Assembly (NCBI RefSeq): GCF_963675165.1
Contig: NW_026986601.1
Location: forward strand, 1 to 64,000
Direction: 5' to 3'
DNA length: 64,000 bases
From: Halichondria panicea
Lineage: Eukaryota; Porifera; Demospongiae; Suberitida; Halichondriidae
Shown here: positions 18,515-37,354 of the stretch, in pieces
Position numbering within the stretch: position 1 is the first letter of the stretch
Layout: each line of letters begins with the position of its first letter
Notes under the pieces: model-generated
Seen by the model: only the letters and a program-made list of their open reading frames with translations
Told to the model about the DNA's origin: nothing
Database searches by the model: none
Position numbers and translations under genes: made by a program

Positions 18515-21500
18515 CTATGTAAACGGTCCGAATTCTACTTCGATTTCCTCAGCTATATCGTTGCGCTCAACAGTAGGACTCCTCAGGCATTCACATATGT
18601 AAGGCCATGTGACCGGATGATCTGAATCAGTGCATTCGAAACGCCTGCCTACCATCTCGGTTAGACAGCGCTTATTATTGTTTTTGTATTGATCCTCAAT
18701 ATCTTTCAAATCTGAATACTTCAGTCCAAAAGCCATTCCCAAATCAAACCAATCTTTGCGAGCAGTCTTCAGTTTCTCACAAATAGTTAGGGTAGTCAAA
18801 ACAATCGGATTGGAGGACGACTGTTTTGTTGAGTTTATGCTTGGATGCTCCTCCTCTGATGATCCTATTATCAAGTTAATTTTGCCATTTTAAGTAAACT
18901 GAATAACACAATGCATGATTGAATTGCAAATTAAAAGCGTTTACTTTATGCAGTGAATTCCGTAGTCTTATCGTGCTGAACATGCAAGAGTCAATGGAAA
19001 CTGCCACATAGATCTAATTATAGTAAATTAAATTTGTCCCCCGCAATAGATTCCCACAGGGTGTCCCCCGGACACATTATACTCTTAATTGTCCCCCAGG
19101 ACCAATGCTCCGGAGTAAAGTGTCTATATATGGATGCGGTGTAGATCTAACCGGGGACTGCTGGTCTCCACTGGACACATTACTGGAGCAAGGTGTCCCA
19201 ATGTATCCGGGACACATTACTCCGGAGCTTTGGAGCACGCTCTAAATTTACAAACTGTACATGCATGTATTACATTGAAAGATAAAAAGTTTGGTCTACA
19301 GTAGAGTTGTGTATGTATAGAAGTGTTAGTGTGATAATGATGATTATGATTAAAGGTCTTCTCTATAAACTGGTGCTATTGTTAAGTTTTTTGTCCAACA
19401 TGCATGTTTGTTGTGCGCGTGCGATGCTTACTTTGGCGGGGGATACTTTGCTCTGGACCTATACCTATGGTACATGTGGTGAAGATCAATTATCCCACTG
19501 CTTGTATAATAAAAGCACCGCAGGTGCTGATGCCTCGGCCGGTGGAGATACCAAAGCTACATAACATAAAGCTACTAATAGCTTTTATACACATGATGAA
19601 CAATTTTGCTGCATGCAAACTCGAAGAGTGGGTAATGATCGACCGTGATTGTTGTTAAAAACGATGGATGCCAAAAGTTCAAGTCTAAAATTAATGGCTG
19701 CATCAGCAGAGCCTTGCAGCCCTCTTCTCACTCTTGCAGCTACCAGTAGCTAGCGTTTTATTGCAGAGCTAACTTTAAGTAGAGTAGCAACACTTGGTAA
19801 ACAAGTTTGGCTACGTGCTCCTGAAAAGGCTGCAATGGCATTCCAAGAGTAAAACTAGGCATAACTCGAGAACAAAGCATTATTTTGCAATCCAAGAAAA
19901 CATGACTATAGAAGCCTATAGAAACTCTTACTTGCACTTCATTGATCCTTGAGCAGCTGTACCAGTCTACACAGACACATAAACACACTACCGTATACCT
20001 CGCTTGCGCATGCGCACCGAGGCATAAAAACTATAACAACTAGTCTCAATTCCAGGCCCTTAAGGCCTGTAAAAACACCACAATACCAATAGGAATGAAA
20101 GCACTGCGGGTGCTGATGCCTCGGTGGAGGTGTTAAAGCTACGTAACATAATTAAAAGCATATATTTTAGCATTAGCTTTATACACACACATTATATTCT
20201 GATGCCATTAATTTGCATTAATTTTGCTGCATGCAGAGAGTGGGTAACGATTGTTAACTGTTAAAACCGATGTATGCCAAAAGTCCAAATCGAATGGCTG
20301 CACACACACACACACACACACACACACACACACACACACACACACACACACACACACACACACACACACACACACACACACACACACACACACACACACA
20401 CACACACACACACACACACACACACACACACACACACACACACACACACACACACACACACACACACACACACACACACACACACACACACACACACACA
20501 CACACACACACACACACACACACCACATACCTCACTTGCGCATGTGCACCGAAGCATAAAATTAACATAATATTCATGACACCAAAGAACACACCTTGTG
20601 TTGATGTTGATTGGGTGCATTTTGCACCAGACGTTTCCTCAGTGGATAGAGGAGAGGGGGCGACAGAAGAGAAAACGGGAGAAGCGTGCTGCTCTACTGA
20701 CATGGAGAAAGGGAGGAAATAAGGGTGCACTATTTCACTACACCAATGCAAGTGGAACAATAGCTATGTAAAATAAATAATGTGCAGTATAGCTAATATT
20801 TTTGGAGCAACATTAATTAGCTACACAAAACATGGAATATTTTCTGACCTGGAAAAGTACTGTCACGGTGGTTTATATTAATAGTGACAATGTTGTAGGG
20901 ACTCTTTGCACCCACTAGCTTGACTTGATGAAATAAATTGCGAATCTTGCAATTGTTTATCATTTCGGCATTTAGGTGGCAGTACGGAATTCTCTGTCCA
21001 CTAAACTGATCAACATGTTTCTTGATGACCTACAGATGTGATGTACAGTTATGCACATGTAATTCACAAGATTTACCCACCGTAGGAGGAAACATTGGGA
21101 TTATTTTCCACCCTCCCTCGACTTCGATACCAGCCATAGGAATATCCAGTGTTATCCTGTCCTCTTCGAACTCAACAAAATGATTCACTCCGAGAACAGC
21201 TCTTTTAGAGGAGTACTCCTTCTTCACATGCTGCAGTAAAACAATAAATTACTGTTTGTGAGTATATAATTATTGTCACTTACTGTTCTATGAATCTCAT
21301 CATTCCAGCTGACAACAAAATGAATTTCCCTGCTGTGCAGCTCTGAGCCAAAGTAGTAGAGGCTGGCAGTGTACACTCTCTCCCTCTCCACATCCTTTCC
21401 TGCCACAGCCAGTCCACTGAAGTTATTCAGCTCCAGCAAACCATATGAGGTCTTGTCTGTGAAAGAGCCACTTCCTTCAAGCTGTTTGAATGTGTAGGGT

Positions 21501-36500: not shown

Positions 36501-37354
36501 TCATCTTTGTGACCATAACGAGACAACATTTCGGAACATTTATCGTGATGTTTGCGCCTGGCTGCATGTAGCATTGTTCTCTTCTTAGAATCGATGACTA
36601 CAGCATTTACATCAATTTCATTGTCTCTCAATAGCACAAGCACTTTTTCAAAGCCAGCCAGCTTGTAGTGATGATTGGGGTTCATGCAATTCATCAGATA
36701 ATAGAAAGGCGTGCAGTTACGTTCATCCAAAACTGTTATAGTTGGAAGAATATCCCTTGCAGCCCTTTTGCACGCGTTAATTACAACACTCAAAAAGTTC
36801 GACCAATACAATGTATCGTCTCTACAAAAAACAGTGTGAAGAATGGTAGATGCACTTCCGCTTTGTTCAAATCCAGTTAAACCTGGCAAGATGTTATGTT
36901 TAACACATAGATTATAAAGCAGTTCAATGGCGCTATTGTGCAAGTTGTCCACTGCTAATTCGATCGGGGTTTTTCCTTGATGATTTTTTGTAGATAGGAT
37001 GGTCTTTTCTTCAGAATCGCCCTGAACAAACAAGGCAATCATATTTTGCTTTGCCATACTATTAAGAGCACTGTGAACTGGGAGATCACCATCATCATCT
37101 TTGTCAATTAACTGTTCTTTAGGCATTTCCGAAACAATTTTCTTCATATCTTCAAACTGAGTGAAAGATGAGCATGGTCCACAACTTCTAGCAAGGCCAT
37201 GAGTGGCAGTGCCGTTAAATAGTCTGTCACGCTTATGAAGGAGTTCTCCATACACTTCCTTAGCAGAAAGATTGCCTTTACACATTTTATGTGCATTATC
37301 TTCCAGCCATTTTTTCCAAACTATGGGCTCCTGAATGGGGTTCCATAAAACCAT
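18515..37354 (-). CDS. Mosaic ankyrin–Ig–ROC–COR–death–ZU5–death protein (17 exons, ~2,015 aa)
   Basis: Exons: 36407–37354, 36187–36261, 31081–31210, 30762–31031, 30505–30696, 24775–27044, 24650–24694, 24174–24515, 24021–24075, 23603–23796, 22523–22628, 21938–22024, 21284–21834, 21081–21230, 20849–21029, 20595–20696, 18515–18864. All junctions keep phase; total 2,016 codons with stop. Domains: ankyrin repeats (1–316), an Ig I-set-like domain (about 388–474), ROC GTPase with P-loop GPGQIGKST (567–575) and switch II DVGGQP, COR, and a cysteine cluster (CPQSDC, CESC). Next is a death domain (exon 24174–24515; FRALIRILLDLG), then ZU5 (GYGFKLTIPQGSLPAGVDQC) with a following UPA-like region, and a C-terminal death domain (DWFDLGMAFGL, CLTEM, VTWPYICECL). 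Likely a cytoplasmic GTP-regulated death-fold scaffold, recalling DAPK (ANK-ROC-COR-DD) and PIDD (ZU5-DD) at once. The 5' end is uncertain: an acceptor at CAG|GAG (37330) and comparison with the ankyrin paralogues suggest a tiny upstream first exon I could not find. Division into two genes is possible but the phases argue against it. Confidence 0.8.
19516..20030. repeat. Dispersed repeat family copy (GCGCATGCGC / CA-run family)
   Basis: Starts with AAAGCACCGCAGGTGCTGAT and GCCTCGG and ends CCTCGCTTGCGCATGCGCAC then CGAGGCATAAAA. The interior CATAACTCGAGAACAAAGC and AGAAGCCTATAGAAACTCTT is shared with 29840–30170, 34975–35070, 40500–41062 and 55490–56030. Lies in the last intron of the large gene. 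Confidence 0.7.
20095..20560. repeat. Second adjacent copy of the same dispersed family, interrupted by the CA expansion
   Basis: Starts GAAAGCACTGCGGGTGCTGA and ends CTCACTTGCGCATGTGCACC. It is in direct orientation with the 19516 copy. Confidence 0.7.
20301..20522. repeat. (CA)n microsatellite, about 111 units
   Basis: An uninterrupted CA run of about 222 bp in the last intron of the large gene. Other copies of the host repeat have short CACACA tracts at the same place, so this is an expansion within the repeat. The apparent long reading frames here (His-Thr, Cys-Val) are artefacts. Confidence 0.98.
23169..23990. repeat. Inverted repeat pair flanking an exon of the large gene
   Basis: GATAAACGAAAGAGAGGGAT with AGGCAACGCC at 23169 is mirrored by GGCGTTGCCTATTCCTCTCT and TTCGTTTATC near 23955–23988. 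GTTATAG occurs just outside both ends, as a target duplication might. The enclosed ~820 bp contains the in-frame exon 23603–23796. It may be one large element or two MITEs in opposite orientation. Confidence 0.6.
27085..27640. other. Intron of the large gene with repeat fragments
   Basis: 27115–27180 holds a truncated end of the dispersed family (CCTCGAGGCGTAGCCGCAC). 27430–27500 holds an end of the CAGGTGTCATACAG element that is intact at 59050–59234. Confidence 0.6.
27640..28180. repeat. Degenerate tandem array of ~60–70-bp palindromic units
   Basis: Recurring phrases CTAAATCTCTCCTATAATA, GGGAGGAGCTTAATGACTGA and GGGCACTAATGCTC alternate along the stretch. Each unit can pair CTCCTATA with TATAGGAG. 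No coding sense. Confidence 0.75.
28655..29517. mobile_element. ~860-bp foldback with ~420-bp arms
   Basis: The left arm begins ATAGAGTAAGTAACCCATCT with TCGCCAGACACC; the right arm ends GGTGTCTGGCGAAGATGGGT and TACTTACTCTAT. The arms match nearly throughout (for example GATCTGCAGCTAACGCTGCT on the right). The centre near 29090 carries a TAGCCTCAATTTCAGGCC-like end. A diverged relative lies at about 54378–54843. Confidence 0.9.
29840..30170. repeat. Dispersed repeat family copy
   Basis: CATAACTCGAGAAAAAAGC, GCCTATAGAAGCTGTTAGC, CA runs with GTACACA interruptions, then CTCGTGCGGCTACGCCTCGA and GGCATAATGAAAGCAC. Lies in an intron of the large gene. Confidence 0.65.
32630..32800. repeat. pogo/Tigger-like transposon termini
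   Basis: CCGTTATAAGAGGTTCCACT then GTA near 32632, and AGTAGAACCTCGCTAATCCA near 32771. These resemble the CAGT-n-GAACCTC termini common to pogo/Tigger-type elements. Another such end is at 39392 (CAGTGGAACCTCCGAATAAC). No transposase reading frame. Confidence 0.45.
33405..33900. repeat. Dispersed repeat family copy, diverged
   Basis: TTCTCGAGTAAAGGTTAGTT, TTAGTAGTTAGCTCTATACT and AGCTATTGGTAGCTGCAAG are shared in direct or inverted form with 19516–20030 and 40500–41062. Confidence 0.55.
34638..34956. repeat. MITE with TAGACGGGCGTCGCCG ends
   Basis: Left TAGACGGGCGTCGCCG, right CGGCGACGCCCGTCTA. Inner blocks AAGCTTATCTACAGTTTTGT and ACAAAACTGTAGATAGGCTT are also inverted. The 9-bp flanks (GCCAATAAC and GGCAATACT) match at six positions. 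Confidence 0.85.
34975..35070. repeat. Fragment of the dispersed repeat family
   Basis: AGAAGCCTATAGAAACTCTT, CGTCGCATTGCAACCGTTGA and GCAGTTATAGCTGGAAT match 29940–30040. Confidence 0.6.
35977..36113. repeat. Small inverted-repeat element
   Basis: CAGGCCTTACTTTTTCTT pairs with AAGAAAAAGTAAGGCCTG, followed by AGAACGAGGCTA, a diverged TAGCCTCG-type end. Confidence 0.6.

Follow-up and report, generated by a model that had tools for sequence, protein, structure and literature searches.

A candidate ROCO-type death-fold gene, apparently assembled from shuffled modules, in the sponge Halichondria panicea

Results

An open chain of exons joins six modules on the minus strand

The DNA analyzed here, hereafter the window, is the first 64,000 nucleotides (nt) of contig NW_026986601.1 (C22; 143,000 bases) from the demosponge Halichondria panicea (RefSeq assembly GCF_963675165.1). 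Its minus strand holds a candidate gene, a chain of exons that runs from an ATG at 37354 to a TAG at 18515 and that is open and splice-compatible in a spliced rebuild made alongside a listing of stop-to-stop open reading frames (ORFs). Along this chain lie, in order, ankyrin repeats (ANK), an immunoglobulin (Ig) domain, a ROC-COR module, a first death domain (DD1), a ZU5 domain with UPA-like exons, and a second death domain (DD2). Our corrected model comprises 17 exons, 5,829 nt, and 1,942 amino acids (aa), with 0 internal stops. A preliminary description of this stretch had proposed 17 phase-compatible exons over 18.8 kb and a product of ~2,015 residues. The open, compatible chain stands, and a rebuild that includes two doubtful exons gives exactly 2,015 aa; those two exons do not stand. 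The rebuild took 18 segments, so the exact exon list behind the earlier figure is itself a reconstruction. The corrected model drops 23796-23603 and 22628-22523 and adds an exon at 22958-22878.

The 5' part of the chain contains the ankyrin, Ig, and ROC-COR modules. Exon 1 (36407-37354) carries the ATG and the ankyrin repeats; it scores 30.3 bits for Ank_2 on its own, above the Pfam cut-off of 27.3, and has at least 18 family matches in the genome. For exon 2 (e2; 36187-36261), DNA relatives that keep its acceptor and its frame follow the ANK exon both on C2 and in a tandem copy on C22, and exon 3 (e3; 31123-31210) is identical in that tandem copy. The Ig domain said to be present in the preliminary description is encoded by exon 4 (30762-31031), which on its own scores 23.7 bits for I-set, exactly at the cut-off of 23.7, and whose relatives precede ROC exons. 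Exon 5 (e5; 30505-30696) has relatives on C5 and C8, where they are placed between Ig and ROC. The ROC-COR exon (exon 6; 24775-27044) has at least 60 matches in the genome. Its COR-A score of 31.4 bits falls below the cut-off of 35.3, which the tandem-copy exon passes with 35.6. Roc scores 12.6 bits here and 13.4 in the tandem copy (cut-off, 27) and is recognized by motif only, namely GPGQIGKST, DVGGQ, and GTYAD at residues 553, 743, and 842. We take these motifs to mark GTP binding, and the P-loop and DVGGQ together suggest that the module binds GTP.

Downstream of ROC-COR, exon 7 (e7; 24650-24694) has relatives in the same position on C5 and C8 (by eye) and a near-copy in C8b. DD1 (exon 8; 24174-24515) reaches 21.9 bits for Death in the exon-level scan, where it was taken with the exons that follow it (cut-off, 22.6), and its relative on C5 passes with 24.2. 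Exon 9 (e9; 24021-24075) gives weak tblastn matches and occupies the same place and phase in the C5 and C8 relatives (by eye). By the same inspection, exon limits recur there for e7, DD1, and e9 and, on its 3' side, for ROC-COR. Three linker exons follow. A relative of exon 10 (linker B; 22878-22958) follows DD1 in one of the ROC-COR genes on C5 (DNA E values of 0.001 and 5e-4), exon 11 (linker A; 22363-22404) has DNA relatives at four loci (L024, L028, L035, and L027; E values of 1e-4 to 0.12), and exon 12 (linker C; 21938-22024) is placed tentatively, by phase fit.

The 3' part consists of ZU5 (exon 13; 21284-21834), two exons called UPA-like by position (exon 14, 21081-21230; exon 15, 20849-21029) that are kept in ZU5 relatives, a tentative linker placed by phase (exon 16; 20595-20696), and DD2 with the stop codon (exon 17; 18515-18864). 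The window ZU5 copy itself has no Pfam ZU5 match at an E value of 1; the assignment comes through its relatives, as Pfam ZU5 is found in 9 of the 10 sequences of alignment A1 (best E value, 8.3e-8) and FIIND in 1 of the 10 (E value, 0.031). Searched against PDB sequences, the A1 profile gave one match, a ZO-1 construct at an E value of 1, the matched part of which we presume to be the ZU5 domain of ZO-1. The ZU5-UPA and ROC-COR segments, searched singly against PDB sequences, gave weak unrelated matches only (laccases and mTERF). The ZU5 exon folded alone had a mean pLDDT of 36.4, and no fold search was based on it. DD2 scores 16.8 bits for Death alone (cut-off, 22.6); the death domain behind a C14 ZU5 exon scores 32.2.

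The module names and their order given in the preliminary description thus hold, with weak scores in the window and with ZU5 and DD2 clear only through relatives. Its comparison of the tail to PIDD and UNC5 is sustained for ZU5 in the same way; DD2 scores below the Death cut-off, and the UPA-like exons have no Pfam match. A hidden Markov model search of the joined protein, which had been proposed as a check, passed the cut-off for Death alone, at 28.9 bits in DD1; COR-A (28.8), Ank_2 (24.4), and I-set (17.3) fell below their cut-offs, and no kinase family matched at an E value of 0.01 or better.

Two introns of the chain carry simple features. A long TG/CA dinucleotide run lies at 20261-20560, before DD2, and a fold-back repeat with ~88% self-complementarity lies at 28652-29520, before the ROC-COR exon. 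An Rfam scan of the window gave no match.

Two proposed exons are a transposon part and a ZU5 relic

The preliminary description had joined 24021 to 23796 and then to 22628, and neither junction survives. Segment 23796-23603 sits inside a repeated terminal inverted repeat (TIR) element at 23171-23989, which is intronic in our model. The ends of this element, 23171-23206 and 23954-23989, are 36-bp inverted repeats with 94% complementarity. The translated segment has 97 matches in the genome, 95 of them outside the window and more than 20 with in-frame stops. The repeat arm, at up to 2 mismatches, occurs 80 times in the genome, versus 0 for a reversed-pattern control, and it lies within 1.7 kb at 51 of the 85 distinct places outside the window that resemble the segment (0.17 expected). 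These matches and the nearby arms place 23796-23603 in the element, and we therefore rejected it as an exon.

We also rejected segment 22628-22523, which is the remnant, with a broken frame, of a different type of ZU5 exon. It aligns with the start of the C15 ZU5 exon (L034) at 84% over 96 nt (E value, 3e-24) and then breaks off. It is also ~80% identical to the starts of ZU5 exons at C6 and C1, and each of the three alignments shows a one-base length difference. This arrangement suggests that the present ZU5 replaced an older ZU5 of the other type, the start of which was left at 22628.

Module order is polarized across the genome

The modules belong to large families, with at least 60 ROC-COR, 63 ZU5, 150 DD1, and 150 DD2 matches in the genome; these are lower bounds, as 150 of 619 candidates were scored for DD1, 150 of 444 for DD2, and 59 of 349 for ROC-COR. 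We counted module order from hand-entered, partly trimmed coordinate lists. These comprised all 63 ZU5 matches, 57 of 60 ROC matches (three second pieces dropped), 17 of 18 ANK matches (one second piece dropped), 25 of 63 Ig/e5 matches (e5, e3, fragment, and weak matches dropped), the 41 strongest DD1 matches, part of the weaker matches from the DD1 search (DDx), and part of the 150 from the DD2 search (DD2). For the counts with controls, C22 was left out, and the controls were the same pair upstream (reverse order) and on the opposite strand.

Module order exceeds chance and is polarized. Of 23 Ig places, 17 have a same-strand ROC downstream (reverse, 2; opposite strand, 0), and a DD1-type death domain follows ROC at 26 of 55 (3 and 0). 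ZU5 follows DD1 at 2 of 40 places (0 and 0), and DD2 follows ZU5 at 7 of 62 (1 and 0), a figure that rises to 17 of 62 (3 and 0) when any listed death domain is counted. DD2 follows ROC at 4 of 55 places (0 and 0). Every adjoining pair of modules recurs at some other locus of this genome; the full six-module order, among the listed matches, maps to the window only. Partial orders include DD1-DD1-DD1-DDx-ZU5-DD2 at C6, ANK-DD1-ZU5-DDx with a broken ANK at one C8 locus, and ANK-ROC-DDx at the other (C8:5.83M).

Linkers B and A, known behind DD1 in other ROC-COR genes, sit between DD1 and ZU5 here, as does the ZU5 relic. We infer that the window gene joins an Ig-ROC-COR-DD1 family to a DD1-ZU5-DD2 family. 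Elsewhere in the window are two more ANK exons of the same family on the minus strand (62328-63287 and 50695-51606; Ank_2, 43.2 and 40.6 bits) and, on the plus strand, an I-set Ig domain within an ORF at 9475-9915 (34.5 bits).

The ankyrin exon is spliced onward, and its join to Ig is the weakest link

Three close copies of the ANK exon end at a shared GTAA donor, beyond which their bases diverge. Relatives of e2 lie behind ANK in 3 of 3 of these copies; that of the tandem copy was missed by tblastn and found by DNA comparison. The shared donor and the e2 relatives together indicate that ANK is spliced onward. At 3 of 17 ANK places, a same-strand ROC follows within 12.5 kb; two of these places are the C22 tandem copies, and the third is a locus at C8. 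The join from ANK/e2 to Ig is the weakest link of the chain.

A tandem copy and a related locus differ downstream

Window positions 40000-24770 have a tandem copy, in several blocks, at about C22:92226-76447 (positions above 69000 in these comparisons are one too high). The likeness ends just beyond the ROC-COR exon, and behind the ROC-COR exon of the copy lie death-domain matches of the DD2 type. Four non-coding stretches differ by 1.8 to 6.1% between the copies, and the Ig and e3 exons show 0 differences. The ANK exons have a dS of 0.13 and a dN of 0.10, and the ROC-COR exons have a dS of 0.21 and a dN of 0.07 (dN/dS, 0.34). This extra divergence begins inside the ANK and ROC-COR exons, a pattern suggestive of conversion or of recombination between these and other copies. 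Against other loci, 17 comparisons that covered the ANK, Ig, e5, DD1, ZU5, and UPA-like exons and counted one ANK relative twice gave dN/dS values from 0.13 to 0.54; by this measure, the modules compared are under constraint. Behind the tandem copy, at about C22 69568-72412 on the minus strand, lie ORFs that resemble a retrotransposon polyprotein by eye.

A second comparison concerns C2. Window 430-11000 equals C2:2420999-2410429 at 100.000% identity over 10,571 bp. Beyond this block, C22 and C2 share further blocks that are mostly 95 to 97% identical or lower and are rearranged, and no long match links the far end of C22 (133000-142999) to the part of C2 that was compared. C22 may represent a second haplotype of this C2 region, or it may have arisen from the region by recent duplication. 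The stretch C2:2364000-2410999 keeps the ANK exon (84% protein identity), e2, and the 3' end of DD2; we found no Ig, DD1, or ZU5 match there, and of ROC-COR only a 48-residue fragment, located beyond DD2. Because C2 keeps these ends and not the middle, the gene may be haplotype-specific. A 3'-end fragment of a ROC-COR exon (40% identity over 48 residues) also lies in the window at 17754-17611 on the minus strand, downstream of DD2. Two long minus-strand ORFs at 56162-57908, one of them CARD-like by eye, have no significant Pfam match and are near-identical on C2.

Discussion

We lean toward reading the chain as one gene, probably encoding a cytosolic ROCO-type death-fold signaling protein that was assembled by exon shuffling. 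Several results count against this reading. In the window model, Roc and UPA lack Pfam support, the two exons after ZU5 having no Pfam match and being UPA-like by position only. Linker C and exon 16 have no convincing relatives in the DNA and tblastn comparisons, nor does e3 at the C5 and C8 loci, and at these loci, which carry related Ig-ROC-DD1 modules, no ANK of the window's family was found. ROC is followed by ZU5 within 12 kb at 1 of the 57 listed ROC places, the window itself, and no DD1 or ZU5 match was found behind the ROC-COR exon of the tandem copy.

Some of these points bear on a division of the chain near its start, in which ANK with e2 would form a separate gene and an Ig-ROC-COR-DD1-ZU5-DD2 gene would begin downstream. 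The related Ig-ROC loci lacking ANK fit such a division, as do the 5-kb gap ahead of e3 and the presence on C2 of ANK and e2 without an Ig or ROC-COR exon. Against it stand the three same-strand ANK-ROC places and the observation, by eye, that e3 and the Ig exon contain no in-frame ATG. We consider this division somewhat unlikely. A division in the middle seems to us unlikely as well. Here, an ANK-Ig-ROC-COR-DD1 gene would end soon after e9, past which a stop is reached within ~40 nt (by eye), and a separate ZU5-UPA-DD2 gene would have its own start, perhaps at one of the possible ATGs near 21.96 kb in an ORF that extends upstream in the ZU5 frame. The singular ROC-ZU5 pairing agrees with this; the presence of both linkers, B and A, and of the ZU5 relic between DD1 and ZU5 speaks against it, as does the recurrence of DD1 followed by ZU5 on C6 and C8. 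The upstream ORF, moreover, crosses an intron 3' end, and similar hydrophobic ORF starts at other ZU5 copies resemble intron ends (by eye). That the chain is a decaying or misassembled recombinant, a by-product of cluster rearrangement and no working gene, is improbable: the transposon and relic within it, the exact C2 identity giving way to rearranged blocks, and the ROC-COR remnant at 17754-17611 would suit that view, and against it are a 5.8-kb chain without a stop and dN/dS values below 1 in all 17 comparisons, though these partly echo the donors' history.

If the chain is one gene, its history and action can be outlined conditionally. Exon shuffling would have joined an ANK/e2 start to an Ig/ROC-COR/DD1 unit, and this unit, through the linkers, to a ZU5-UPA-like/DD2 tail. 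Binding of a ligand or partner would fall to ANK and Ig, switching to the ROC GTPase, and dimerization to COR, and DD1 and DD2 would recruit death-fold adaptors. A cytosolic location is suggested by the highest 19-residue hydropathy mean of only 1.67, within the ROC-COR part. A possible self-cleavage of ZU5 at F1637-S1638 would release the UPA-like/DD2 piece, in the manner of the FIIND of NLRP1 and CARD8.

The end of ZU5 is consistent with such a cut. In alignment A1, all 10 members carry the F and 9 of 10 the S, the tenth having Cys, and the window reads N-F-S. Passages of one study report self-cleavage at SF/S for CARD8 and NLRP1 and at HF/S for PIDD, a requirement for the serine after F, and severe impairment of CARD8 when F is changed to H (PMC3210808). 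In the same passages, the residue before F carries little weight, and two conserved histidines and a glutamate matter (PMC3210808). The F-S pair suggests a PIDD/NLRP1-like self-cleavage in the window protein, from which self-release of the UPA-like/DD2 piece would be plausible.

Our search of titles, abstracts, and passages recognized no paper describing this module order, in line with the earlier statement that no described protein with it was known. The parts have separate parallels. DAPK1 (kinase-ANK-ROC-COR-death; PMC12365538) shares ANK, ROC-COR, and death in order. The DAPK layout named in the preliminary description is nevertheless partial, because the window model has no kinase and places Ig between ANK and ROC; it also adds ZU5, UPA-like exons, and a second death domain. 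PIDD1 and UNC5 share the C-terminal ZU5 and the proposed UPA-like and death modules that follow it, the F-S pair recalling the HF/S of PIDD in the passages cited above (PMC3210808), whereas the window model lacks their leucine-rich repeats (LRRs) or receptor part and has ANK, ROC-COR, and DD1 in front. The FIIND of NLRP1 and CARD8 is likewise a module of the ZU5-UPA type and is cleaved at an F/S pair (PMC3210808, same passages), but the window model has a death domain for CARD and ROC-COR for NACHT, and cleavage at its F-S pair is putative.

Expanded, shuffled families of this kind also have precedents. A passage on the sponge Amphimedon describes a lineage-specific expansion of Death/TRADD-N proteins with many unique domain orders, comprising 357 TRADD-N proteins of which up to half have a unique order (PMC8195603). 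Shuffled death-domain proteins in sponges are therefore known in kind, although that passage names no ROC-COR or ZU5. Brown-algal ROCO candidate immune receptors are described as an expanded ROC-COR family to which exon shuffling has brought diversity (PMC11378527); there, LRR exons are shuffled, whereas in the genome of the window it is ANK, Ig, death, and ZU5. Other passages name NACHT-Zu5 and NACHT-Ank in early animals (PMC12909245), ROC and COR in Toll-like receptors and a MyD88-like protein of Aplysia (PMC9334734), and ZU5 among amphioxus relatives of RIP kinases (PMC9573974).

A further reading of the C2 comparison is more speculative, and we think it quite unlikely. The ROC-COR/ZU5 chimera would be a self-cleaving GTPase sensor restricted to one haplotype, so that one version of the locus would carry it and the other would not, with ANK and ROC-COR exons exchanged patchily between copies and products serving immune or self/non-self recognition.

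Two things could not be seen in the preliminary description: the parts derive from families that are expanded and shuffled, and C2 carries a version without the middle. If the locus yields one transcript, one chain would combine a GTPase switch of the ROCO type with two death domains and a ZU5-type module that bears the self-cleavage pair, and the literature searched contained no description that we found of ROCO, two death domains, and ZU5 combined. Transcribed as one gene, the locus would show cassette-wise building of cell-death regulators in a probable early-branching animal, and the difference between C2 and C22 would open presence/absence variation among genes of this kind to direct testing.

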